A stretch of 64,000 bases of DNA, from the IMG/VR virus record IMGVR_UViG_3300011115_000708, positions 17,029 through 81,028 of that record. The stretch is one strand, 5' to 3'. Of the stretch, positions 20,468-64,000 are shown piece after piece (positions within the stretch are counted from its first letter, which is position 1; every line of letters begins with the position of its first letter). Source of the DNA: a virus. The notes under the pieces are model-generated. The model did no database searches and was not told the DNA's origin. It worked only from the letters and a program-made list of their open reading frames with translations. A program made the position numbers and the translations under genes.

Positions 20468-21108
20468 AAAACAATGATCCAAAGGGTGCAATTGGCGACA
20501 CCAAATCACCGCTAGGGCTAATTCCATCCTGCGCGATGGAACAGACAGCGTGGGTACATAAACTTGGAGCCAAGAAATACGGCCCATACAACTGGCGCAA
20601 GACTGGTGTCTGCGCTACTACCTATGTCAATGCCATCATGCGGCATCTCAATGCCTGGAAGGACGGCGAAACACTAGATCCAGAGAGTGGTTTCTCCCAC
20701 CTGGCTCACATTGCCGCATCCTGCAATATCTTGATGGACGCAGACCACTGTGGAACTCTTGACGATGACCGAGACATTACCCCAGACAATCAGGTAGCAT
20801 TCGATGATTTAACTCCTGTGAAGTCGTTGCCAGACGAGATGTACGACTTCATGAAAGAAGGTGATCGTGTCTGTGAAGGTGATGAAGGGTATTCTGATAC
20901 TGGAGACTATTGGTTTGTCACCGCCTTCAAGACTAAGGACAACTACCGAGTTCCGAAAGGAAGAAAGTACCGCCGTATAAAGAATGGTGGATTAGAGAAA
21001 GAAAGCGTGTCTGCAGATGAATGCAAATGCGGTAGAATCAAGATCAAGCATTTCCTTTTAGGAGTAATCTGCGAAGACTGCGAAGTAAAATGGCAAGACC
21101 CATACTAA
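20464..21108 (+). CDS. dATP/dGTP diphosphohydrolase-N-like protein with C-terminal zinc ribbon
   Basis: Residues 34-95 (GAKKYGPYNWRK, then AIMRHLNAWKDGE and SGFSHLAHIAASCNILMD) match the phage all-helical MazG-like domain annotated as the dATP/dGTP diphosphohydrolase N-terminal region. The conserved K-Y-G-x-x-N-W and H-L-x-A-W motifs are present. The C-terminus has CKCG and CEDCE, a short zinc ribbon. It may clear nucleotides or alter pools during replication. No PurZ-like gene is seen, so modified-base synthesis cannot be claimed. The last stop base is the first base of repeat R. Confidence 0.65.
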   Translation: MKNNDPKGAIGDTKSPLGLIPSCAMEQTAWVHKLGAKKYGPYNWRKTGVCATTYVNAIMRHLNAWKDGETLDPESGFSHLAHIAASCNILMDADHCGTLDDDRDITPDNQVAFDDLTPVKSLPDEMYDFMKEGDRVCEGDEGYSDTGDYWFVTAFKTKDNYRVPKGRKYRRIKNGGLEKESVSADECKCGRIKIKHFLLGVICEDCEVKWQDPY

Positions 21109-21266
21109 TGAAACACCCATGCTCACTTTGCGGATCAACGAATTGGCCCGATCCAGAATCACTTTGTCCGTTATGCGATGGGCCTGCCGAACCTGGCCCA
21201 GATCCAGATGAGGACTGCCCAGACCACGACTCGCATGACGAAACTATTTATCAAGAAAATATATGA
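21108..21266 (+). CDS. 52-residue double-CXXC zinc-finger protein (R copy 1)
   Basis: It starts MKHPCSLCGSTNWPDPES and continues with CPLC, so two CXXC pairs could hold one zinc. The tail is acidic and His-rich (DEDCPDHDSHDE). The start shares one base with the upstream stop and the stop overlaps the next ATG by 4 nt. An identical copy is at 56617-56775. Function unknown. Confidence 0.55.
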   Translation: MKHPCSLCGSTNWPDPESLCPLCDGPAEPGPDPDEDCPDHDSHDETIYQENI

Positions 21267-21574
21267 GTGATACACCAGAAACAGATAATCAATCATTCGT
21301 TGCAGAACATAACCTCGGTAAAGAACTATGCGTCGAGGCGTGGTTTTGTGAAATCATGGAACGCGAACGAGATGCGTGGAAATTGAACTCTCAATCAAAT
21401 CGTGATGAATATCATAGATTGATGATTGAAGTAGATGATCAGAATTTTCTAATTAAGAACATCATCAAATTACTGGAAATACCGGAGAATCTATCTAAGG
21501 CAGAACATGGTGCTAAAATACATAGAACCATCAAAGAACTGCTTGAGATAAAAAAATACTGCAAAGTACCCTAA
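21263..21574 (+). CDS. MSDTPETD-type coiled-coil phage protein, 103 aa (R copy 1)
   Basis: It opens with MSDTPETD, a short start shared by many small phage proteins, including another in this repeat (22635). The rest is helical and charged (MERERDAWKLNSQSNRDEYH), consistent with a coiled coil. There are no catalytic motifs. Identical copy at 56772-57083. Function unknown. Confidence 0.6.
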   Translation: MSDTPETDNQSFVAEHNLGKELCVEAWFCEIMERERDAWKLNSQSNRDEYHRLMIEVDDQNFLIKNIIKLLEIPENLSKAEHGAKIHRTIKELLEIKKYCKVP

Positions 21575-21585
21575 CACAACCAGCG

Positions 21586-21693
21586 ATGGACTTGATCGAA
21601 GTCGCCTCGACCGATAAACGAGGAAACGCAGGTAGAGAATCCTGCTCGCTGACCACTTTTATGAGAGAACAAAACAACGACGACGAACCATGA
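21586..21693 (+). CDS. 35-residue peptide (R copy 1)
   Basis: It starts MDLIEVASTDKRGNAGRESC and ends EQNNDDEP. The call rests on the stop overlapping the next ATG by 4 nt and on filling an otherwise empty 115-nt gap. Identical at 57095-57202. No function is inferred. Confidence 0.35.
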   Translation: MDLIEVASTDKRGNAGRESCSLTTFMREQNNDDEP

Positions 21694-22052
21694 ACAATCC
21701 ACCAATGACCGAACCCGAAGCGAGAACCGTGGCACTCCTTCGGATGCACTTTGGCTGCACTTTCGGAAAACTCGCTATGTGCTGCCAAGCATTATGGGAT
21801 GCTAACCGCTGTGAGGAAATTACTGGATACCGATATGGCTCCCCAATGGGGCAAGCTATGGTAATCGCAATGGAAGATCACTTCCAGCTAGAACGCTGCG
21901 AGTCTGACAACATGAGCATGGGCGAGCAACGATGCGCAACTTGCGGACTGTCTCAGGTGGCAATTAGCCGATCGCACGATACGCCCAAGCAATGCGGGTT
22001 CTGCGGAGAGTTTGCTTCGATGTGGAATTCTATCAATCCGAACGAACCATGA
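21690..22052 (+). CDS. zinc-ribbon phage protein, 120 aa (R copy 1)
   Basis: The N-terminal 70 residues are helical (LLRMHFGCTFGKLAMCCQAL). The C-terminus has two CXXC pairs (RCATCGLS and QCGFCGEF) with a short spacer, a classic zinc ribbon. The role is unknown; nucleic-acid or protein binding is likely. The stop overlaps the next ATG by 4 nt. Identical copy at 57199-57561. Confidence 0.6.
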   Translation: MNNPPMTEPEARTVALLRMHFGCTFGKLAMCCQALWDANRCEEITGYRYGSPMGQAMVIAMEDHFQLERCESDNMSMGEQRCATCGLSQVAISRSHDTPKQCGFCGEFASMWNSINPNEP

Positions 22053-22375
22053 ACATTATCCTAAATAAAGAACAGGAAGACAGCATTGTTATAAGCTATC
22101 AAGAAGCTATTACTGCTGCAATTAAAGCTGCAGTAGATAAAGAACTTAGCTCAATTAGGAATGATTGGAAAATTCATGATCAAGTTCAACAATTTGTGCG
22201 AAAACAGTTTGGAGAAATGTTGAACTCAATTATTGCTGAAAAGCTAATAGAACGAGAGTTAGTTGAAGAACTGGTTAAAGAAAAACTAGCATCCTCAATT
22301 AAAAGTCGTCTTACCAAACAACTAAATGCTTTGTCAAAAGCAGAAATAGCAATTGAACACGAAGGAGATTTATGA
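22049..22375 (+). CDS. helical hypothetical protein, 108 aa (R copy 1)
   Basis: The start is chosen at 22049 because it forms an ATGA overlap with the upstream stop; a longer frame from 21992 would run into that gene. The protein is Lys/Glu-rich and almost wholly helical (VEELVKEKLASSIKSRLTKQ), and the gene is visibly more AT-rich than its surroundings. No family is recognised. Identical copy at 57558-57884. Confidence 0.55.
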   Translation: MNIILNKEQEDSIVISYQEAITAAIKAAVDKELSSIRNDWKIHDQVQQFVRKQFGEMLNSIIAEKLIERELVEELVKEKLASSIKSRLTKQLNALSKAEIAIEHEGDL

Positions 22376-22638
22376 ATAAAGAAAACGCACATTTATACCT
22401 ACCGCTTGTGCAAGCACTGGCAGAAGGGAAAACGATTCAATTCAATCAAGGCGACGCATGGATAGACGCTGCAACTAATGCTGATTTCAAGTGGTTGGAC
22501 AGTCCTGACAATTACCGCGTGAAGCCAGAACCGCGCACATGGAGTTTCTGGTTAGATAAAAAAGGAAATTTGTGGCATTACCACATAACTCCACTTGCTG
22601 ATTGGAAACGCATCACCGTGCAGGAGGTGCTGGAATGA
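22372..22638 (+). CDS. small conserved phage protein with YRVKPEP motif, 88 aa (R copy 1)
   Basis: It starts MNKENAHLYLPLVQALAEGK and contains WLDSPDNYRVKPEPRTW, a pattern common in short phage early proteins of unknown function. A clear Shine-Dalgarno (AAGGAG) precedes the ATG, unlike most genes in this window. Its stop overlaps the next ATG by 4 nt. Identical copy at 57881-58147. Confidence 0.65.
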   Translation: MNKENAHLYLPLVQALAEGKTIQFNQGDAWIDAATNADFKWLDSPDNYRVKPEPRTWSFWLDKKGNLWHYHITPLADWKRITVQEVLE

Positions 22639-22835
22639 GCGACACGCCAGAAACAGATGCGGCAGAAATCGTTCTTTCTCCATTAGAAGGCGATCAGTGG
22701 GTTCGAGCTGACGTTGCCCGTAGGCTAGAACGCGAGCGTAATATAGCTTTTGCTGACATCAATTTGCTTTGCGACAAAGTATTGGAATTGAATACACTGC
22801 TGCAAGCACATGGAATTATCGAACACGAAAACTAA
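22635..22835 (+). CDS. second MSDTPETD-type protein, 66 aa (R copy 1)
   Basis: The start is the ATG at 22635, preceded by AGGAGG and overlapping the upstream stop. It opens MSDTPETDAAE like the 21263 product, then a helical region (ARRLERERNIAFADINLLCD) of coiled-coil type. It may interact with its relative two genes upstream. Identical copy at 58144-58344. Confidence 0.6.
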   Translation: MSDTPETDAAEIVLSPLEGDQWVRADVARRLERERNIAFADINLLCDKVLELNTLLQAHGIIEHEN

Positions 22836-22836
22836 A

Positions 22837-23187
22837 ATGACTGACAAACAAATAAACCAACGGATCGCGGAAGCGTGTGGGTGGAAATTGAAATCAAATG
22901 GATTAAATCCCATGTGGTCTTGGCAAAATGAATCTCTAACTCACAGAATAAAGTGGGTAGCTAACAAAGAAATGGCTTCTCAAGGAGTATTGCCAAACTA
23001 TGTAAACGACCTAAACGCCATGCACGAAGTTCAGAAGGTGCTAACAAATACTCAATGGGGAGTTTATGTTAATTACCTAACTGCTACCACAAAACATGAT
23101 TACAGACGAGCGTGTGCTGAGGCATCCGCTCGCCAACGAGCAGAAGCCTTCCTAAGGACACTTGGAAGATGGGAGGAGGAAGTATGA
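22837..23187 (+). CDS. phage ABA-sandwich-like protein, 116 aa (phage B version)
   Basis: The start is the ATG at 22837, one base after the previous stop. The pattern IAEACGWK, then LPNYVNDLNAMHEVQKVL and ARQRAEAFLRTLGRWEEE, is that of small phage ABA-sandwich proteins, function unknown. The first 299 bases lie in repeat R; the last 17 codons diverge from the other copy (58346-58738), which is 14 residues longer. Confidence 0.6.
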   Translation: MTDKQINQRIAEACGWKLKSNGLNPMWSWQNESLTHRIKWVANKEMASQGVLPNYVNDLNAMHEVQKVLTNTQWGVYVNYLTATTKHDYRRACAEASARQRAEAFLRTLGRWEEEV

Positions 23188-23221
23188 ATGCGAAACATCA
23201 CGCTTTCAGGAGAATCAATAC

Positions 23222-23239
23222 TTTCAGCATTTGCTGAAA
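23222..23239. other. conserved hairpin TTTCAGC-ATTT-GCTGAAA (phage B side)
   Basis: A perfect 7-bp stem with a 4-nt loop, just after the R-spanning gene. The same 18 bases occur at 58723-58740 although the bases around them differ. There is no T-run, so processing or protein binding is more likely than termination. Confidence 0.5.
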
Positions 23240-23266
23240 TCGACAAAACTTACCAAACACAAAACG

Positions 23267-23518
23267 ATGGAAATTGAACTACAAATCTGGAAATCAAAAG
23301 CAGAAGGTTATTTGCAAGACTACCTCGATGCTCTGAAGCGCATGGATAAGATCTCAGCCGATCGCGACCTCTGGAAAGCTGAAGCGACTCGCTGGCGCGA
23401 TATGTATCTCCAGTACGACGAAATGCTGGAGGGACAAGTGCAAGAATCAGTGAACAAGATCAACAAGATCTGGGAAGATCTCAATGAGCTCAAAAAGAAA
23501 GTCGAGGACGAACTGTGA
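23267..23518 (+). CDS. coiled-coil phage protein, 83 aa (phage B)
   Basis: The start is placed at the ATG at 23267 (MEIELQIWKSKAEGYLQDYL). It is helical with heptads throughout. It is a diverged counterpart of 58779-59093 (shared pattern WKS-[KR]-AE and Y-L-Q then LKR). The stop overlaps the next start by 4 nt. Function unknown. Confidence 0.55.
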   Translation: MEIELQIWKSKAEGYLQDYLDALKRMDKISADRDLWKAEATRWRDMYLQYDEMLEGQVQESVNKINKIWEDLNELKKKVEDEL

Positions 23519-36933: not shown

Positions 36934-37725
36934 TTATGGTGAGGTGAGTCGTCCTTTGACTGAGGTATTCAAGATCACTGATGTGCCGATCTGGGTAACT
37001 GCCACATCGACGCTGGCATCGTAGAAAAGCATATCGTTCATCAATGTCCATTCTGATGCTGCTGTTGTAGATGCTGATGTTGGAGCAGCAGTAATTCCAG
37101 TGCAAGTCCCATTTGCAATCGCTATATTCAATGTTGAATCATTTGCAGCATATGGACTCTTGCGAGTAAGCACAAGATCTGCTCCAGTTCCACTCACATT
37201 AAAATATTGCTGGACTGGAGGATATGTTAAAAAAAACAATCTTACAGTTTCCATCCATTGGGATGGTGTTTGATTAACAGTAACGGGAATTGAAAAAATA
37301 AATGACGCAAAATCAAGACCTGCTCCTGTTAAAGTAACATAAGCATTACCTGCTCCTGTAATAGTACCTAATCCAGTTGCAGTCTCGACTTGGCGCGTCC
37401 CCATTGTTGTTGGGTATGGTTGGCTGAGTCTCACAGTCAATCCAGACTGATTCGATAATCGAACCGGCATGGTCTGCACGAAGTAAGAAACCCAGCGTTG
37501 ATACTGATATGACGATCCATCGATAAGTTGGAACCTCGATGTGAACGAGGCAGATACCATCGTGCCAGGACGAAAGAACTGACGACCATATGTCCCGCCA
37601 ATGTACGAGACATCTTGGAAGCTGTAGTTGCTGCTGATGTTGAGACCAGATGTCTCTGCGCCTTGACCTTGATCCCATCCGGCAAGGTCAATTATCTTAT
37701 CTCCTATGAATGCGGCTGCATACAT
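36934..37725 (-). CDS. tail structural protein, 263 aa
   Basis: A beta-rich protein beginning MYAAAFIGDKIIDLAGWDQG, with many aromatic and small polar residues. It sits between the major tail tube candidate and the tape measure gene, where assembly chaperones are usual, but its length and strand content look structural. I see no slippery frameshift site linking it to a neighbour. It may be a second tube or tail-completion protein. Confidence 0.5.
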   Translation of the reverse strand: MYAAAFIGDKIIDLAGWDQGQGAETSGLNISSNYSFQDVSYIGGTYGRQFFRPGTMVSASFTSRFQLIDGSSYQYQRWVSYFVQTMPVRLSNQSGLTVRLSQPYPTTMGTRQVETATGLGTITGAGNAYVTLTGAGLDFASFIFSIPVTVNQTPSQWMETVRLFFLTYPPVQQYFNVSGTGADLVLTRKSPYAANDSTLNIAIANGTCTGITAAPTSASTTAASEWTLMNDMLFYDASVDVAVTQIGTSVILNTSVKGRLTSP

Positions 37726-44592: not shown

Positions 44593-45957
44593 TCAGAACT
44601 TGTTGAACCCACCGACGATCGGTGCTGTGAACGGAGTGCGACCAACCCTAGTGATAGCTTGGCCGGTGATAGCTCCGTTCATCTCTGGGCCACAGACGAT
44701 GCACCCGAGAAGTGCGTCAGCACGGTCGGGTGACTTGAGTCCCATGATGCGCATCGTCTCCTTCGCTTGTACACGCAACTTGCCATTCTCACTCCACTCG
44801 GTCTTCCGCGTGGTCAACTGGTTGAATGTGATCGGATCAAGGTTGCCGAGGTTCACTCGTCCTCGCTCGATCTCACGACATCCAACGTGCCAGACCTCAC
44901 CAATCAAGTTCGCGTACTCGTTCGGTTCACGACTTCTCGATCCTCCATGAAACCGATTGATCCTCCACCCTTGCTCTGCCATCGCATCTATCATCACTGA
45001 GCCGAGACCATCGGCATCACCCCAGATCATCGATGGTTTCAGTTGTTCCTTCTCGAATAGCTTGATGAACTGACGAACGCCCTGCATCGTGTCTTTCTCG
45101 ACCCATGTGCGCGAGATCCGAGCCGAGTTACCTCTTCGGACTGCAAGCACGTTCTCGTCTCGACCGGCAGCGAAGTCACAGAACGCAACGATGTGACCAT
45201 CGAGCGGTTCGGGTTGCTCGTCGATCGCCTTGAGAAGCCTATCACTTGATATCAGAAGTCGGTCGATGTCCTCCGCAAACTCAGCTAAGTGCATCGACCT
45301 GTAGATCGGATGGTTCTCACCATAGATCGACAAGTCTCGATCACGTTTCTCCTGCGGAATGTGAGCGCACTGGTCAGACCGAACCTTCACCCGCTTCCAG
45401 TGCGATGCTTCTTCAAACTGCGACCTATAGAACCAACCAACTGGTGCGCCTGGACTCGATGTCGCTAGGATGCGCGAGCAAGTACAGCGATCGACCGCGG
45501 TCTTGATGCTGTCTGGGATTGTCTTCGCCTCGTCAAGAACGTACAGCACCGGCGAGTCGGCAGTTGCGTGGTAGCCTTCCGCTCGTCCCGCGTTATCAGT
45601 CGAGAACCCGCTTGCCCATCCACCTTGCGGAGTCTTGATCTCGGCTTGGTTCCAGATCCACCCGTCGAACATCGGGTTGCCTCGGTACAATTCCATCGCG
45701 GGCCAAAGTTGCAGCAATACCTGCCTCCACGACCCAGACGTGATGACAACCCTCCCTTTCGGGTAGTTCGCAAGGAACCACAAGATCGTCGGTGCAATGA
45801 TCGCCGCAGTCTTCCCCGATCCGTTCGCAGCAACCACAGATGTCCGAACGTCGTCGTTGATATAACGGAACGCTTGCATCTGCCAATCGTATGGCTTTAG
45901 ACCGAGTACGCCAAACGCGAATGGGCCTAGCTCAATAGTCGGTTTCGGTAGTTGCAT
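44593..45957 (-). CDS. terL: terminase large subunit
   Basis: The ATPase half shows Walker A AANGSGKTAAI near residue 45, Walker B VLYVLDEA near 138 and the coupling motif ATSSPGA near 166. The nuclease half has a first Asp cluster (VAFCDFAAGRDENV near 258), a second (IWGDADGLGS) and a third (KSPDRADAL near 415). Together these are the hallmark of TerL enzymes that pump DNA and cut at packaging ends. It overlaps the small terminase gene by 26 nt. Confidence 0.9.
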   Translation of the reverse strand: MQLPKPTIELGPFAFGVLGLKPYDWQMQAFRYINDDVRTSVVAANGSGKTAAIIAPTILWFLANYPKGRVVITSGSWRQVLLQLWPAMELYRGNPMFDGWIWNQAEIKTPQGGWASGFSTDNAGRAEGYHATADSPVLYVLDEAKTIPDSIKTAVDRCTCSRILATSSPGAPVGWFYRSQFEEASHWKRVKVRSDQCAHIPQEKRDRDLSIYGENHPIYRSMHLAEFAEDIDRLLISSDRLLKAIDEQPEPLDGHIVAFCDFAAGRDENVLAVRRGNSARISRTWVEKDTMQGVRQFIKLFEKEQLKPSMIWGDADGLGSVMIDAMAEQGWRINRFHGGSRSREPNEYANLIGEVWHVGCREIERGRVNLGNLDPITFNQLTTRKTEWSENGKLRVQAKETMRIMGLKSPDRADALLGCIVCGPEMNGAITGQAITRVGRTPFTAPIVGGFNKF

Positions 45958-46423
45958 CCCAACGCTTTCTGAAGTCTTCCAACTGCTTGTTCTCGATCTG
46001 GACGTTCTCCATCGACGACGTGTTCACGTTCACCATGATGTCTGGGTTCTTGCCAACCTCAGACCAACGCGCACGACACTTCATCCAGAAGATACACGCT
46101 GGCAATGCCGTGCGCTTGTCGTCTCCCATCGCAATGTCGTAAAGTCGTTGTGCAACCGAGGTCGTCGCCTTCGTCTGTCCCAGAAGGAACTCTTCCTTGT
46201 AGTGACGCTCGATCGTGTTGTCGTCGATGCCGATCTGCGCTGCCATCATCCGCAGTGGGATGCCGAGACCTGCCATCTTCTCGACCAACGCACTGTTGAT
46301 CTCGGTCTTGACGTGCGGCTTGAACTTACCGTCTGGAAGTCGTTCAATCTTCTTCCCATCAACCTCGGTAGCTTCTACCTCGATGATGTGTGGCTCTGGA
46401 TCTAGCTTTTTTCTCTTACTCAT
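45932..46423 (-). CDS. terS: terminase small subunit candidate
   Basis: An HTH-like region (LVEKMAGLGIPLRMMAAQIG, then IDDNTIERHYKEEFL) resembles the N-terminal DNA-binding domain of small terminases. A helical oligomerisation part follows (ATTSVAQRLYDIAM). It lies directly before terL, overlapping it by 26 nt. It should choose the packaging site on phage B DNA. The Mu gpF-like gene is upstream. Confidence 0.75.
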   Translation of the reverse strand: MSKRKKLDPEPHIIEVEATEVDGKKIERLPDGKFKPHVKTEINSALVEKMAGLGIPLRMMAAQIGIDDNTIERHYKEEFLLGQTKATTSVAQRLYDIAMGDDKRTALPACIFWMKCRARWSEVGKNPDIMVNVNTSSMENVQIENKQLEDFRKRWDATTETDY

Positions 46424-46426
46424 AGA

Positions 46427-47314
46427 TTACCTTCCCATCTTGCTACGCAGAAAGTCAAGCGACACCGATCCGTCGGCGTTCAAGACCTGCTGACCAAACC
46501 GATCAACGAGACGCTGACGTGCCTTGATCGCAATGTCGTCTGGTACGTCCTTCATCTCTGCCTTGACTCCGCTCATCATCGCTTGCGCTGGCTTTACCCC
46601 GAACATCGATACGTTCGGTGGGTTGATCCGCTGACCATCTACAATCACACCAAGACGGATTGCCTCGCGTCTTGAGATAAATTCTTGCACCATGTACGAG
46701 TTGAACCCATACGGCCCCCAAGGGACAACGAACCCACCAATATCAGCACCATTCTGGAATAACCAGAAGTTGAAGTCGTCCAACCGACGAACCTCACCCT
46801 CAGCCGCAACGTGCCTCGGACGCTTGATGATCGCACCTGGCCGCCGAACGAACCGAGCCGCAGGGAAAGCATTGAGCAGCGTAGGGTCTCCCACGATCCT
46901 CTGCCAGTTAGCGAACGTCTGCGCTTGCTCGATGTTCGTGTTGAAGATTAGCTTGAGCCGTGATGCACCGGCAATGTTCTGCAACGAGTCGTCTGGGAAG
47001 TCTTCACTCGTTGCCAGTCCCTCGCTGACCAGCAATGTCCGCGCCTTCATCCGAAAGTCCGCAAGGTTACCCACCTTGTACGCAGTGGATTGCGATCCGG
47101 TCGGACTCGTCATCTGCTCAACTGCTCCAGCTTGCCAATCCAACAACATCGATCGAAATCGAGAAAGAACGCCAGCACTCGCAACAGTAGCCGAAAAGAA
47201 CGCCTTCTGACGGATCGCTGGGGCAACAGCCTGCCAATCACGCGACGACATCTCTGACGGAAGTACCTTCTTGCTAACAAGTGCTTTGATTGCATCAATG
47301 AATTGCTGGATCAT
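46427..47314 (-). CDS. Mu gpF-like head morphogenesis protein, 295 aa
   Basis: The start is the ATG at 47314, overlapping the upstream stop as ATGA; an in-frame start at 47383 would lie inside that gene. Residues 135-195 (LKLIFNTNIEQAQTFANWQR, then FVRRPGAIIKRPRHVAAEG) match the phage head morphogenesis (Mu F / SPP1 gp7) family. These are minor head proteins bound to the portal. In Mu the gene follows the portal; here it precedes the terminase genes, an unusual order. Confidence 0.75.
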   Translation of the reverse strand: MIQQFIDAIKALVSKKVLPSEMSSRDWQAVAPAIRQKAFFSATVASAGVLSRFRSMLLDWQAGAVEQMTSPTGSQSTAYKVGNLADFRMKARTLLVSEGLATSEDFPDDSLQNIAGASRLKLIFNTNIEQAQTFANWQRIVGDPTLLNAFPAARFVRRPGAIIKRPRHVAAEGEVRRLDDFNFWLFQNGADIGGFVVPWGPYGFNSYMVQEFISRREAIRLGVIVDGQRINPPNVSMFGVKPAQAMMSGVKAEMKDVPDDIAIKARQRLVDRFGQQVLNADGSVSLDFLRSKMGR

Positions 47315-47592
47315 GGGTTGGACTTGATTTGCAGGTAGAGGTCGAGTGCCTCGTCGGTCTTGATCCGCATTGTTGCCAACCATGAGTAAATCGACCTCGG
47401 GGTTTTATTGAACGCCAAGGCGATGTCGTCTGGATGAATCCCGTCGTCGAACAGCACCTGCGCGATCACCGCTCTGATGACCTGCAATGTCGGGTTCACC
47501 TTGACCTGCCCCCTGTGGATCGTAGACGCAGGGATGCCTGTCGCCTCGGATGCTCGATTCAAGATTGATGCGATGTGGAGATGCAGCACCAC
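47311..47592 (-). CDS. DnaA domain-IV-like HTH protein of phage B, 93 aa
   Basis: The stretch TLQVIRAVIAQVLFDDGIHP then DDIALAFNKTPRSIYSWLAT has the DnaA C-terminal layout: helix, HTH with a T-P-R-S-I recognition helix, and a trailing helix. It is a diverged counterpart of the phage A protein at 16580-16915. Here it opens the leftward late operon, so a role at the nearby repeats (47.79 kb) or as a late regulator is possible. Confidence 0.6.
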   Translation of the reverse strand: MVLHLHIASILNRASEATGIPASTIHRGQVKVNPTLQVIRAVIAQVLFDDGIHPDDIALAFNKTPRSIYSWLATMRIKTDEALDLYLQIKSNP

Positions 47593-47790
47593 AGCAGATA
47601 AGCAGATCCGGTAAGGAACATCAAGTGGTTCGGGTTGCGTGGTTGCGTGAGGAATCGGAATTTAACGCAGAATCTAACAGAAGTCCGTCAGAATTGTGCC
47701 AATTTACAGGAGGGGGGGGGTAGGGGTGCAATTTGCCCCCCATAAAACAAGCGGGCCCCCCCCATAAAACAAGCGGTGACCGATCGGCAT

Positions 47791-47842
47791 GACCGCGGGA
47801 CGACCGCGGGACGACCGCGGGACGACCGCGGGACGACCGCGG
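47791..47842. repeat. 11-bp tandem repeat GACCGCGGGAC, 4.7 copies
   Basis: Four full units and one partial unit in direct array; each contains the palindrome CCGCGG. The spacing, about one helical turn, is what protein-binding iterons show. Confidence 0.85.
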
Positions 47843-47952
47843 AGCATGGCCTAGGACGGCAGGGAAGTATGCCGGTGCATGGCAGGGTGCGCGACTCGAG
47901 ACCGACGTGGTACGGTAGACGGCAGGTGACCGCATGACGGTGATGCGATCGT

Positions 47953-47970
47953 TTCAAACGATCGTTTGAA
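47953..47970. promoter_or_regulatory. 18-bp perfect palindrome TTCAAACGATCGTTTGAA
   Basis: A perfect inverted repeat without loop, flanked on the left by a partial further copy (GATCGTTT). The form is that of an operator for a dimeric regulator; the binding protein is unknown. Confidence 0.6.
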
Positions 47971-48377
47971 TTCGGGTGTGGCGAGGATGGATCGGCAGGG
48001 TAGATCGCGGGTGATCCGGCATGATTGCACCTTGCCAAGGTGAGGGGGGTGTGGGGGGTATGTTTGTCAGTCCTTGGATTTCACGGGGGCGAAACGGCAG
48101 GGAATTGCACGGGATTTCCCTTATTTATATTACTTTGAAATTCTGTCATAGAAAACAAGCCTCCGGAGCCTCCGGTGAATATTTAAAGTGGGAAACAAGC
48201 CCCCCGCCCCCTCCGGACGCAAAGCGTACGCTTTCCCGTCCGTTTATAGCCTCCCCTAGGTTGTCCACATGGGGCGTGAAGACGGATCGGATTGCGCCAA
48301 GTAAACCCTACCCTTTCCCACTACGGCTCCCATTGCCACCCACCTCACCCACCCCACCCTCGCCACATTGACGCACA

Positions 48378-48409
48378 AAGGGTGCGCAGGAATTACCCCA
48401 CGCACCCTT
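48378..48409 (-). terminator. hairpin after the small-gene operon
   Basis: AAGGGTGCG (48378-48386) pairs with CGCACCCTT (48401-48409) around a 14-nt loop, 32 nt beyond the last stop (48441). The T-run is poor, so termination is only likely. Confidence 0.4.
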
Positions 48410-48414
48410 ATCTA

Positions 48415-48435
48415 CCCTACCCTCGCCCTTACCCC
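48415..48435 (-). other. G-quadruplex motif on the minus strand
   Basis: Read on the minus strand it is GGGG-TAA-GGG-CGA-GGG-TA-GGG, four G-runs with loops of 2-3 nt. It follows the 48441 stop codon directly, so it would be in the 3' part of that transcript. Confidence 0.5.
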
Positions 48436-48440
48436 TACTC

Positions 48441-49367: not shown

Positions 49368-49392
49368 GTCTATTTTTCGTTGTTCGTTGTTC

Positions 49393-49410
49393 GTTGTTGT
49401 TGTTGTTGTT
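49393..49410 (-). repeat. (AAC)6 repeat in the leader of the 49146-49367 gene
   Basis: Six GTT units on plus, AAC on the coding strand, followed by AACGAAC-type repeats up to about 17 nt before the ATG. It parallels the AAC tract before the 54123 gene. Confidence 0.6.
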
Positions 49411-50143: not shown

Positions 50144-50289
50144 AGCGCGCCTCCGATCACAAGCAAGGTTGCTAAGCCGGTTGCCAAGGCTATCGTTTGC
50201 AAGGTGTATTGCACGCCTCGAGCAATTCCAAATATCGCGACCATGCCCAAAAGCAGGGTTGCTGTGATAATTATTAAGTCAATTTTCAT
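50140..50289 (-). CDS. 49-residue two-span membrane peptide
   Basis: It starts MKIDLIIITATLLLGMVAIF and has a second apolar half ending TLLVIGGAL, with a short polar link. The stop overlaps the next ATG by 4 nt, which supports it as a real gene. The role is unknown; it may be a superinfection-exclusion or regulatory peptide. Confidence 0.5.
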   Translation of the reverse strand: MKIDLIIITATLLLGMVAIFGIARGVQYTLQTIALATGLATLLVIGGAL

Positions 50290-50294
50290 GAATT

Positions 50295-50552
50295 TTAATA
50301 GGTTGGAACTAAGCGAGACTCGACGGAGTGGAGTTTATCTAAATGACGGGAGAGAATGCGTGCCAACGCATTCACGGCGCGGTTATGCTCCAGTGTACCA
50401 GTCACATCTAAATCGACGATGACATGACAAGGAGTAATCTCAACGATGTGGATCGGGAATGCGCGACGCTTTATCCAGTTGCGGACTAACGGCAGCGCGG
50501 TGGGGACGTGCAACGGTTCCGTTTTTTCAGTAGTGAATTTGAATCGGTTCAT
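50295..50552 (-). CDS. small hypothetical protein, 85 aa
   Basis: The start is at 50552 (MNRFKFTTEKTEPLHVPTAL); a longer frame to 50591 adds residues with no support. It is a compact alpha/beta protein with HIVEITPCHVIVDLDVTGTL, rich in strands. It is the first leftward gene after the iteron-bearing gap. No family is recognised. Confidence 0.5.
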   Translation of the reverse strand: MNRFKFTTEKTEPLHVPTALPLVRNWIKRRAFPIHIVEITPCHVIVDLDVTGTLEHNRAVNALARILSRHLDKLHSVESRLVPTY

Positions 50553-50591
50553 TTTTTTATAGGCGCGCCTTGTTTGCGGCGACGGGTGCAA

Positions 50592-51100
50592 GATGACATG
50601 CGGATTTTATCAGCGCAATCAAATTTTAGCTTTTCCGCATTTATTTTTGTTTGCGCTCAATTCCTAGGTTTTCCGCCATTTCCACAAATCTCCGGCCTAT
50701 GCAATCGGCCACCGGCAACGGTACGGTGCGCGGTGCTGGCAACCCTAGGCAACCGGCAACCGGCAACCGGCAACCGGCAACCGGCAACCGTATGCCAATT
50801 GCCAGGTCGCGAAATGCTATTCACTAGCTTGTGAAATTTCACAATTGACGCATTGCATGATCATTCATGAAATGACGCATCATCGTTCATGATCGTTCAT
50901 TACATTAGCCGAAAAAAATAAAAAAAATCCCCGAAAGCCTGGTGACCCCCCTGTAGTGGCATCTAAATTTTTGAAAAAAAAATCGCCATCCCCACTCACC
51001 TACTTGCACATGAGCAGCACATAAGCCGACCATGCTAGAGTAGGTGAGGTCGATCGGGAAAAATTACCGAATACGGGCGAAAAAAAATTTTTTTTTAGAA
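50592..51100. other. candidate replication origin of phage B (non-coding gap with iterons)
   Basis: This 509-bp gap lies directly beyond the 3' end of the primase-helicase gene. It contains six tandem GGCAACC units (50748-50789), three degenerate copies of [GC]ATC[AG]TTCAT near 50859-50897, and A/T-rich runs (for example 50910-50930 and 50972-50983). Clustered iterons plus an AT-rich stretch next to an initiator-type gene is the classical origin layout. A promoter for the leftward small-gene operon must also be here. Confidence 0.55.
50748..50789. repeat. 7-bp tandem repeat GGCAACC, six copies
   Basis: Six perfect units head to tail, with looser relatives just upstream (GGCAACG near 50714, GGCAACC at 50738). 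Confidence 0.9.
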
Positions 51101-56477: not shown

Positions 56478-56620
56478 GCATAATTGGAAGAGATCCGATC
56501 CTTACTTACAAGATCACCCAGTTGATCGGCAAACGAGCAGAACGCGCTAGAGTACGCCAACAGCGTATCGATGCTATTCTATCACCACTAGCAACCATCA
56601 AACGCATCCTTGGACTATGA
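56465..56620 (+). CDS. 51-residue basic helical peptide
   Basis: It starts MDTLSIIGRDPILTYKITQL and has an Arg-rich helix (GKRAERARVRQQRIDAIL). The ATG lies inside the previous gene and the stop overlaps the first ATG of repeat R by 4 nt. Small size, but both junctions follow the operon rule. Confidence 0.5.
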   Translation: MDTLSIIGRDPILTYKITQLIGKRAERARVRQQRIDAILSPLATIKRILGL

Positions 56621-56775
56621 AACACCCATGCTCACTTTGCGGATCAACGAATTGGCCCGATCCAGAATCACTTTGTCCGTTATGCGATGGGCCTGCCGAA
56701 CCTGGCCCAGATCCAGATGAGGACTGCCCAGACCACGACTCGCATGACGAAACTATTTATCAAGAAAATATATGA
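56617..56775 (+). CDS. 52-residue double-CXXC zinc-finger protein (R copy 2)
   Basis: Same sequence as 21108-21266. Here its ATG overlaps the stop of the phage B peptide at 56465-56620 by 4 nt, so it is coupled to a different upstream gene than in copy 1. Confidence 0.55.
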   Translation: MKHPCSLCGSTNWPDPESLCPLCDGPAEPGPDPDEDCPDHDSHDETIYQENI

Positions 56776-57083
56776 GTGATACACCAGAAACAGATAATCA
56801 ATCATTCGTTGCAGAACATAACCTCGGTAAAGAACTATGCGTCGAGGCGTGGTTTTGTGAAATCATGGAACGCGAACGAGATGCGTGGAAATTGAACTCT
56901 CAATCAAATCGTGATGAATATCATAGATTGATGATTGAAGTAGATGATCAGAATTTTCTAATTAAGAACATCATCAAATTACTGGAAATACCGGAGAATC
57001 TATCTAAGGCAGAACATGGTGCTAAAATACATAGAACCATCAAAGAACTGCTTGAGATAAAAAAATACTGCAAAGTACCCTAA
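56772..57083 (+). CDS. MSDTPETD-type coiled-coil protein, 103 aa (R copy 2)
   Basis: Identical to 21263-21574; see there for motifs. The ATG overlaps the zinc-finger stop. Confidence 0.6.
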   Translation: MSDTPETDNQSFVAEHNLGKELCVEAWFCEIMERERDAWKLNSQSNRDEYHRLMIEVDDQNFLIKNIIKLLEIPENLSKAEHGAKIHRTIKELLEIKKYCKVP

Positions 57084-57094
57084 CACAACCAGCG

Positions 57095-57202
57095 ATGGAC
57101 TTGATCGAAGTCGCCTCGACCGATAAACGAGGAAACGCAGGTAGAGAATCCTGCTCGCTGACCACTTTTATGAGAGAACAAAACAACGACGACGAACCAT
57201 GA
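57095..57202 (+). CDS. 35-residue peptide (R copy 2)
   Basis: Identical to 21586-21693, with the same ATGA overlap into the next gene. Confidence 0.35.
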   Translation: MDLIEVASTDKRGNAGRESCSLTTFMREQNNDDEP

Positions 57203-57561
57203 ACAATCCACCAATGACCGAACCCGAAGCGAGAACCGTGGCACTCCTTCGGATGCACTTTGGCTGCACTTTCGGAAAACTCGCTATGTGCTGCCAAGCA
57301 TTATGGGATGCTAACCGCTGTGAGGAAATTACTGGATACCGATATGGCTCCCCAATGGGGCAAGCTATGGTAATCGCAATGGAAGATCACTTCCAGCTAG
57401 AACGCTGCGAGTCTGACAACATGAGCATGGGCGAGCAACGATGCGCAACTTGCGGACTGTCTCAGGTGGCAATTAGCCGATCGCACGATACGCCCAAGCA
57501 ATGCGGGTTCTGCGGAGAGTTTGCTTCGATGTGGAATTCTATCAATCCGAACGAACCATGA
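57199..57561 (+). CDS. zinc-ribbon phage protein, 120 aa (R copy 2)
   Basis: Identical to 21690-22052, with RCATCG and QCGFCG pairs. Confidence 0.6.
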   Translation: MNNPPMTEPEARTVALLRMHFGCTFGKLAMCCQALWDANRCEEITGYRYGSPMGQAMVIAMEDHFQLERCESDNMSMGEQRCATCGLSQVAISRSHDTPKQCGFCGEFASMWNSINPNEP

Positions 57562-57884
57562 ACATTATCCTAAATAAAGAACAGGAAGACAGCATTGTTA
57601 TAAGCTATCAAGAAGCTATTACTGCTGCAATTAAAGCTGCAGTAGATAAAGAACTTAGCTCAATTAGGAATGATTGGAAAATTCATGATCAAGTTCAACA
57701 ATTTGTGCGAAAACAGTTTGGAGAAATGTTGAACTCAATTATTGCTGAAAAGCTAATAGAACGAGAGTTAGTTGAAGAACTGGTTAAAGAAAAACTAGCA
57801 TCCTCAATTAAAAGTCGTCTTACCAAACAACTAAATGCTTTGTCAAAAGCAGAAATAGCAATTGAACACGAAGGAGATTTATGA
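57558..57884 (+). CDS. helical hypothetical protein, 108 aa (R copy 2)
   Basis: Identical to 22049-22375; AT-rich gene with the same ATGA start. Confidence 0.55.
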   Translation: MNIILNKEQEDSIVISYQEAITAAIKAAVDKELSSIRNDWKIHDQVQQFVRKQFGEMLNSIIAEKLIERELVEELVKEKLASSIKSRLTKQLNALSKAEIAIEHEGDL

Positions 57885-58147
57885 ATAAAGAAAACGCACA
57901 TTTATACCTACCGCTTGTGCAAGCACTGGCAGAAGGGAAAACGATTCAATTCAATCAAGGCGACGCATGGATAGACGCTGCAACTAATGCTGATTTCAAG
58001 TGGTTGGACAGTCCTGACAATTACCGCGTGAAGCCAGAACCGCGCACATGGAGTTTCTGGTTAGATAAAAAAGGAAATTTGTGGCATTACCACATAACTC
58101 CACTTGCTGATTGGAAACGCATCACCGTGCAGGAGGTGCTGGAATGA
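57881..58147 (+). CDS. small phage protein with YRVKPEP motif, 88 aa (R copy 2)
   Basis: Identical to 22372-22638, including the AAGGAG ribosome-binding site. Confidence 0.65.
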   Translation: MNKENAHLYLPLVQALAEGKTIQFNQGDAWIDAATNADFKWLDSPDNYRVKPEPRTWSFWLDKKGNLWHYHITPLADWKRITVQEVLE

Positions 58148-58344
58148 GCGACACGCCAGAAACAGATGCGGCAGAAATCGTTCTTTCTCCATTAGAAGGC
58201 GATCAGTGGGTTCGAGCTGACGTTGCCCGTAGGCTAGAACGCGAGCGTAATATAGCTTTTGCTGACATCAATTTGCTTTGCGACAAAGTATTGGAATTGA
58301 ATACACTGCTGCAAGCACATGGAATTATCGAACACGAAAACTAA
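58144..58344 (+). CDS. second MSDTPETD-type protein, 66 aa (R copy 2)
   Basis: Identical to 22635-22835, including AGGAGG upstream. Confidence 0.6.
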   Translation: MSDTPETDAAEIVLSPLEGDQWVRADVARRLERERNIAFADINLLCDKVLELNTLLQAHGIIEHEN

Positions 58345-58345
58345 A

Positions 58346-58738
58346 ATGACTGACAAACAAATAAACCAACGGATCGCGGAAGCGTGTGGGTGGAAATTGA
58401 AATCAAATGGATTAAATCCCATGTGGTCTTGGCAAAATGAATCTCTAACTCACAGAATAAAGTGGGTAGCTAACAAAGAAATGGCTTCTCAAGGAGTATT
58501 GCCAAACTATGTAAACGACCTAAACGCCATGCACGAAGTTCAGAAGGTGCTAACAAATACTCAATGGGGAGTTTATGTTAATTACCTAACTGCTACCACA
58601 AAACATGATTACAGACGAGCGTGTGCTGAGGCATCCGCTCGCCAGAAAGCAGAAGCATTTCTAAAGACATTTGGAGAATGGGAGGAGGAAGCAGAAGAAT
58701 GTTTACAAGACTTCCTCGATTCTTTCAGCATTTGCTGA
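58346..58738 (+). CDS. phage ABA-sandwich-like protein, 130 aa (phage A version)
   Basis: The first 299 bases are repeat R. From 58645 the sequence diverges from copy 1, changing the C-terminus to ARQKAEAFLKTFGEWEEEAE and adding 14 residues that end FSIC. The added end overlies the TTTCAGC-GCTGAAA hairpin. In phage B the same hairpin lies outside the coding frame. Confidence 0.6.
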   Translation: MTDKQINQRIAEACGWKLKSNGLNPMWSWQNESLTHRIKWVANKEMASQGVLPNYVNDLNAMHEVQKVLTNTQWGVYVNYLTATTKHDYRRACAEASARQKAEAFLKTFGEWEEEAEECLQDFLDSFSIC

Positions 58739-58740
58739 AA
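58723..58740. other. conserved hairpin TTTCAGC-ATTT-GCTGAAA (phage A side)
   Basis: Same 18 bases as 23222-23239, here covering the last codons and stop of the 58346-58738 gene. Confidence 0.5.
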
Positions 58741-58778
58741 TCGACAAAATCTACAGAACACAAAACGATGGAAACTAA

Positions 58779-63068: not shown

Positions 63069-63644
63069 ATGAAAGCAATAGCGCGGAGAGCGAAGGGGGC
63101 GGCCAAGGGGGAGACAGCGGGAGCGGCGCAGCCGCGAGCAAGAGCAGGCGCTGCGAAGCAGGCAAAGGCAGACGGGGATGGCGCTGCGAAGCAGGGAGAC
63201 AGGCAGGGAGCTAAGCAGGGAGCTAAGCGGTCGCATCTTGAGCTGAAGTGGATCGGTCTGTGGGATGAGCTCGGTGGGCCAGAACTGCAGGAGGAGGTGA
63301 AGTTTCACGCAACGCGGAAGTGGAGGGCGGACTTTGCCCATGAGGGGGCGAAGGTGTTGATCGAGATCGAGGGCGGGGCGTGGGGTGGCAGACACACCAG
63401 GGGCGGGGGTTTCACGGCAGACCTGGAGAAGTACCTGGCTGCGTTCCTAGACGGTTGGTCTGTGGTGAGGATCGGTGCTGGACAGATCAACTCGGTGGTG
63501 GTGCAGGCGGTGATCAAGCAGGTGAGGATGAGGATGGGCGTGAGGGTGGGGGCTGGGATGGCGGTGGGTGATAGCGCGGAGAGCGTGAGCCGTGGCGGCA
63601 GCGGTGAGGATAGCGCGGAGAGCGTAGCGGATAGCGCCGAGAGC
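63032..63644. repeat. dispersed 15-mer GATAGCGCGGAGAGC, five copies
   Basis: Copies at 63032-63046, 63078-63091 (first base differs), 63570-63584, 63609-63623 and 63630-63644 (one change). Those near the N-terminus of the nuclease gene are read as IARRA, those at its C-terminus as DSAESV, so the repeat is conserved as DNA, not protein. Confidence 0.85.
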
Positions 63645-63662
63645 GTGGAGTGGCTGCGGTGA
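63069..63662 (+). CDS. Vsr/DUF559-like single-domain endonuclease with repeat-rich ends, 197 aa
   Basis: The start is tentatively the ATG at 63069; a TTG at 63030 is also in frame. Residues 55-145 hold a nuclease fold: LEEEVKFHATRKWRADFA-like strands with the catalytic Asp, KVLIEIEGGAW, then GGRHTRGGGFTADLEKYLAA, and GWSVVRI. This is the PD-(D/E)XK/Vsr-like layout of phage homing or packaging-associated nucleases. Both termini are low-complexity and formed by the 15-mer repeat and Ala/Lys stretches, so the functional part is the centre. The gene is markedly GC-richer than the rest. Confidence 0.6.
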   Translation: MKAIARRAKGAAKGETAGAAQPRARAGAAKQAKADGDGAAKQGDRQGAKQGAKRSHLELKWIGLWDELGGPELQEEVKFHATRKWRADFAHEGAKVLIEIEGGAWGGRHTRGGGFTADLEKYLAAFLDGWSVVRIGAGQINSVVVQAVIKQVRMRMGVRVGAGMAVGDSAESVSRGGSGEDSAESVADSAESVEWLR

Positions 63663-64000
63663 AATTTTTTTGATTTTTTTTCGTTTTTTTTCGACCGTCG
63701 ATTTTTTCTGGTTTTACCTCCAGCCTGTCTGCGCTCGTCGGCCTCGGCGGTCGGATCGGGTGGATCGGGCGGGTTGTGGGGCGATGATCGGGGCGGATGG
63801 GGCCGTGCTGGCGCTGGGCGGTGTCTGTGAGCTCGTCTGGCGGCCTGTCTGGGGCTGGACAGCGGAAATGGTTTGCGGCCTGCCTGAGGGCCGTTTGCGG
63901 CGCAAAAAAAGGGAGGCCGTTTCGGGCCTCCCTTTGATGGGATGGGGGGATCGGGCCGTCAGTATCGGCCTCGGGCCGTGGCGGTGAGCCAAGCGGTGGC
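63663..64000. other. GC-rich terminal stretch without a convincing gene
   Basis: It begins with T-runs (TTTTTTTT near 63665-63690) and continues GC-rich. Frames on both strands are arginine/glycine or proline/serine shadows. It holds the hairpin at 63904-63935. It may be the start of the next phage A gene region beyond the window. Confidence 0.5.
63904..63935. terminator. bidirectional hairpin terminator
   Basis: GGGAGGCC (63911-63918) pairs with GGCCTCCC (63925-63932), loop GTTTCG. Seven A lie before the stem and TTT after it, so termination may act in both directions. Confidence 0.65.

Follow-up and report, generated by a model that had tools for sequence, protein, structure and literature searches.

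The window analysed in this work is a stretch of DNA of 64,000 nucleotides (positions 17029-81028 of an 81028-bp IMG/VR record), in which a non-coding block (47593..48440) separates two minus-strand operons where the replication genes give way to the packaging (late) genes. The first-pass annotation of this DNA had described the block as gene-free, and the negative codon-usage scores of all open reading frames (ORFs) inside it confirm this; the motifs reported for it (viz. an 11-bp array, duplicated units, a palindrome, a hairpin and a G4 motif) are also all present. Alignability of the block to related genomes is limited to a few conserved elements, the remainder being mostly unalignable. The genes that follow it on the minus strand are, in order, those for a 93-aa HTH protein (47311..47592), a 318-aa head morphogenesis protein (46427..47383; phrog_220; 37% to the Akkermansia phages Chambord and Chantilly), the terminase small subunit (TerS; 45932..46423; phrog_309, 5.6e-07) and the terminase large subunit (TerL; 44593..45957; phrog_7579, 1e-07; 54-56% to contigs of Luteolibacter pohnpeiensis), and then a Mu-type portal protein. 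The block is hence not directly upstream of the terminase, as had been claimed, but is separated from it by two genes. Nor does the genome otherwise have almost no gaps, for a larger gap of 957 bp (50144-51100), between the primase gene and a DUF7227-like gene, is also gene-free and packed with repeats. This second non-coding block contains a GGTTGCC x6 array, an A8T8 palindrome and T-tracts, and it is largely kept in the relative L002, where the 7-bp unit differs.

The first 678 bases of the record (L120:2-678) match its last 690 bases (63315-64000 of the window) at 92%, and an identical stretch of about 120 or more bases closes this overlap. With its ends overlapping in this manner, the record seems to represent a complete genome, circular in map and about 80.35 kb long. 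Short repeats abound in the overlapping region, where the GC skew is 0.35. By head and portal proteins, the closest isolated phages are those of Akkermansia; in view of this and of the TerL relatives in Luteolibacter contigs, the host of this lake-type virus is probably a member of the Verrucomicrobiota. DNA comparison with named phages gave no match, and Rfam and tRNA searches of the sequence returned nothing.

The highest-scoring tandem array of the window is located within the block at 47791..47842 (minus strand), where Tandem Repeats Finder (TRF) reports a period of 11, 4.7 copies, 100% match and a score of 104; its unit, read with the late operon, is CCGCGGTCGTC. Five relatives reach into the block (viz. 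L002, L003, L004, L005, and L006), and an 11-bp tandem array is present at the same place and in the same orientation in all six genomes compared, including the window. The core CCC-N3-GTC-N2 is common to all six at the 11-bp step, with a few single units deviating in it, so that in all six the direct repeats are tandem and helically phased, as in iteron-type origins. The units themselves differ, being CCGCGGTCACC in L002, CCGGTGTCGTC in L003 and L006, CCTCGGTCCGC in L004, and CCGGTGTCGCC mixed with CCTCGGTCCGC in L005, whose array sits at the end of a contig and is to be read with some caution. L004 and L005 belong to one species, with 97.6% identity across 4.2 kb; even so, 5 of the 11 positions of the main array unit are different between them, period and core being unchanged. 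The array persists in relatives down to about 78% nucleotide identity with core and orientation unchanged. Comparison with close relatives had been set as a test of the block, and the array comes through it with its place, period, orientation and core conserved; among the other motifs the palindrome is kept in one relative only (L002), and the hairpin and G4 motif are not kept. L002 also possesses another 11-bp array, unrelated to the first (ATGTTGGCCCA x4.9), which lies across the AT-rich element described below, on its upstream side.

Several other elements accompany the array. A promoter-like module, TACCCCCCCCCTCCTRTAAAT ... TTCTGTTAG(A), is located at 47673..47722 (minus strand), and its C9 tract is of invariant length and at a fixed 40-bp offset to TTCTGTTAG in all six genomes, with TTCCGTTAG, one base different, taking the place of TTCTGTTAG in L006. 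Between module and array are two copies of CCCCCCATAAAACAAGCGG (47736-47754 and 47758-47776), in place of which most relatives have one shorter copy, GTTTTATGGGGG. The lowest-GC 40-mer of the block is GCTTGTTTTCTATGACAGAATTTCAAAGTAATATAAATAA (48121..48160, minus strand), a candidate unwinding element or second promoter, and in each of the three genomes extending that far (window, L002, and L004) the homologous 40-mer is the GC minimum of the block (reached by 1, 19, and 10 of 500 shuffles, respectively). An AT-rich element adjacent to the repeats, as in iteron-type origins, is therefore found in 3/3 genomes, its unwinding role being putative. It is surrounded by a conserved non-coding element (48035..48220, minus strand) that carries two copies of GCTTGTTT and shows 76% identity to L002 (171 columns) and 77% to L004 (178 columns). 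The motif AAACAAGC occurs four times in the block and eight times in the window, where 2.65 occurrences are expected.

The exact 18-bp palindrome TTCAAACGATCGTTTGAA (47953..47970) is operator-like, and no perfect palindrome in the whole 81-kb record is longer; with up to 3 mismatches, 0.01 matches to it are expected. L002 keeps its core, AAACGATCGTTT, adjoining its array, and in L004 and L005 a different palindrome, CGATGTATRTACATCG, occupies its place. Directly after the upstream operon lies a 9-bp hairpin (minus strand) with arms AAGGGTGCG (48378-48386) and CGCACCCTT (48401-48409), which is terminator-like in its position, fails a terminator scan, has no run of five T after it and is absent in L002. 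The G4 motif at 48415..48435 is broken in L002, and a second one is present at 48339..48359 (both minus strand); the block holds two of the four G4 motifs and six of the 12 G-runs of 6 or more in the window.

The 93-aa protein, the first gene product of the late operon, is a candidate reader of the array. Its AlphaFold model (AF2, seven sequences) has a pLDDT of 89.6 and matches the DnaA domain IV fold over the whole domain: the best structural matches are 3pvp and 1j1v (Z 12.5, 1.8 A over 87 residues), and the six top matches are all DnaA chains (Z 9.5 to 12.5), the next non-DnaA structure scoring 6.9. The top three Foldseek matches are also DnaA domain IV chains, with weak E-values. The Pfam family Bac_DnaA_C (PF08299) gave no match to this protein at E 1, its curated cut-off not being reached, and no DnaA was retrieved when solved structures were searched by sequence with the 93-aa family or with the protein at the equivalent place in L008; the resemblance of the 93-aa protein to DnaA is thus visible from the fold comparison alone. 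The L008 protein itself matches Bac_DnaA_C (37.9 bits vs. a cut-off of 31.5). The 93-aa protein is without an AAA+ part. Its identity among array-bearing relatives is 59-85%, its presumed recognition helix RSIYSWL is unchanged across the array-bearing genomes, and it is near-identical in L004 and L005 although their array units differ. Hence, the protein would read at most the shared core. In L008 (773-1433) the genes for the Bac_DnaA_C protein and, after it, for a TrmB-like winged-helix protein immediately precede the head gene. In the more distant relatives L012, L013, L015, and L016 a winged-helix protein gene takes the place of the DnaA-IV one, and the spacer before the late genes carries, in an origin-like layout, GGGCAG-type repeats in both orientations around an AT-rich centre (L012:4907-5760).

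The block is probably either a replication start site or a late-gene switch, and both functions could reside in it. The reading that we rank first, tentatively and at somewhat less than an even chance, is that of an iteron-type replication origin read by a DnaA-like protein, which the first-pass annotation had not considered. The 11-bp array would represent helically phased iterons, to which the 93-aa protein would bind with all copies on one face of the helix; the bound protein would help to open the AT-rich element at 48121-48160, about 280 bp from the array, where helicase and primase would load and replication would start, and the promoter-like module would start the late operon carrying the 93-aa gene. 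This reading is favoured by the phased repeats, the AT-rich element and the protein of DnaA domain IV fold, together with the association of arrays with initiator genes elsewhere (see below), and it is also supported by the conservation of array place, step and core in 6/6 genomes while the unit sequence drifts, and by the second 11-bp array of L002 beyond the AT-rich element. The iterons of plasmids are helically phased (PMC5043065) and, like lambda iterons, have an AT-rich stretch nearby; the block differs from both types of origin in that its 11-bp unit changes within a species and in that it is without an identified Rep or O protein. The low-affinity DnaA sites of Escherichia coli oriC are 2 bp apart, a 9-mer + 2 bp giving the same step of 11 bp (PMC6727663), and a DnaA domain IV fold is common to both systems, whereas the unit of the block is GC-rich and not a DnaA box. 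The oriR of SPP1, which is located in the late region, consists of direct repeats and an AT-rich DNA unwinding element (DUE) (PMC6316719); the likeness of SPP1 oriR and oriL to the block is one of layout, since SPP1 gp38 is a full origin-binding protein and the candidate reader here is a 93-aa protein of DnaA-IV fold.

Arrays of this kind were also sought in IMG/VR, by scanning for GTCNNCCC in three copies with a step of 11 bp, with the reversed core CCCNNCTG as control. Outside the family, 35 matches were found for GTCNNCCC vs. 28 for the control, and a widespread GTCNNCCC motif is rejected on these counts. The core itself is therefore not enriched and the enrichment lies in the gene context: of about 52 non-redundant loci in the two sets together, arrays representing about 13 lineages overlap replication-initiator or helicase-loader genes (counted as replication-initiation, O-like, replisome-organizer, and DnaD-like helicase-loader genes), a post hoc comparison in which the arrays were picked blind to gene content and were C-rich and of a single period. 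About six of these lineages belong to the GTCNNCCC set (L138, L155, L157, L165, L167, and L170) and about seven to the reversed-core set (L172, L177, L178, L181, L183, L186, and L191), the calls for L177 and L155 resting on similarity to other DnaD-like proteins. Among 81 ORFs at 100 random positions on the same contigs, no initiator is found in the top 25 families listed, and phmmer searches with the initiators against the ORFs at 100 random positions found none. The initiator gene of L157 and its kin contains the array, an AT-rich tract adjoins it, and a DnaB-type helicase gene follows, an arrangement like that of lambda ori. It is possible that 11-bp tandem arrays are a general mark of phage origins. 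Arrays within initiator or helicase-loader genes are present in the unrelated phages L157, L163, L165, L167, L170, L172, L181, L186, and L191.

Some observations count against an origin at the block. The array of the window is intergenic and not inside an initiator gene, and its candidate reader is without the Bac_DnaA_C match and the AAA+ domain of DnaA. The gap at 50144-51100, beside the primase gene, is a rival candidate for an origin. The cumulative GC-skew minimum, at about 55.6 kb, is outside the block, though GC skew alone is indecisive.

The main rival, which we consider possible but rather unlikely, is that the array is an upstream enhancer from which the DnaA-IV-like protein activates the late promoter module in the manner of GafA or GafY. 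The location of the block just ahead of the head-terminase-portal operon and the promoter-like module are explained as well by this reading as by an origin, and the rigidity of the module in all six genomes and the constant orientation of the array agree with it. The sources cited here describe, in the parts concerned, a GafA N-terminus that is DnaA-DBD-like (PMC6363796), binding of GafA 75-125 bases upstream of TerS and stand-alone small DnaA-like genes in Hyphomicrobiales (PMC9638019), action of GafY from about -113 to -123 (PMC11150451), and activation of gene-transfer-agent (GTA) packaging clusters by proteins of DnaA-IV-fold type (PMC6363796, PMC9638019). A DnaA-DBD-like protein near a terminase and structural cluster located downstream is likewise found in the window; a difference is that those parts of the GafA/GafY literature describe no tandem array and that no sigma-like partner was found in the window. 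However, the distance from array to module varies from 37 to 147 bp among the genomes, a sigma-70 promoter scan gave no good promoter, an activator seldom needs 4 to 14 or more identical sites, and the C-rich 11-bp arrays elsewhere accompany initiator genes. The suggestion that the block contains a late promoter or a pac/cos site stays alive in its first part, through the module conserved in 6/6 genomes and the DnaA-IV-fold gene heading the late operon; nothing specific supports its second part.

A pac site, at which TerS, as a ring of HTH domains spaced by about one helical turn, would wrap the phased array, is improbable. Such a ring would fit the array and tolerate drift of its unit, and the pac of SPP1 includes direct repeats (PMC4737164) upstream of the packaging genes, as does the block; however, in SPP1 the site extends over the beginning of the TerS gene, whereas here TerS is the third gene and starts at 46423, about 1.4 kb from the array at 47791. 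The wrapping is disputed (PMC9611059), HK97 TerS binds a 15-bp site (PMC11331095), and the predicted TerS model is too poor to judge its DNA-binding domain. The record ends overlap at 63315-64000, about 16 kb away, so that the assembly break is not at the block. The contigs of three relatives (L003, L005, and L006) do end within the array, but short-read assemblies break anyway at long runs of identical 11-bp repeats, where contigs can be expected to end; a physical terminus deduced from these ends was rejected, two of the three contigs also breaking together in the gene at 36934-37725. The least probable reading, that of a neutral minisatellite in which 11-bp arrays of a non-coding spacer arise and are kept uniform by slippage, agrees with the turnover of the unit within a species and with the 7-bp arrays in other spacers of the genome, but it is weakened by leaving unexplained the persistence of the array in 6/6 genomes down to about 78% identity with core and orientation constant, and random slippage also offers no explanation for the link between arrays and initiator genes.

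If the block is an origin, as we prefer, then phage origins could be located in metagenomes simply by their phased 11-bp arrays, and an initiator or origin accessory consisting of DnaA-IV only would be unusual for a phage. The L004 and L005 pair, with different units at 97.6% identity, provides a natural test of sequence reading vs. helical-phase reading. A more specific proposal, to which we give a low probability, is that a stand-alone DnaA-domain-IV reader recognises the phased array from its spacing together with a short core, the unit being swappable within a species while the protein stays unchanged.

Other repeats are found elsewhere in the window. A direct repeat of 2.17 kb (21104-23273 and 56614-58774) is 98.4% identical between copies that are 35.5 kb apart, and a TTCGTTG x5.3 array is located at 49376-49410, with a AAACAACG array at a like place in L002.
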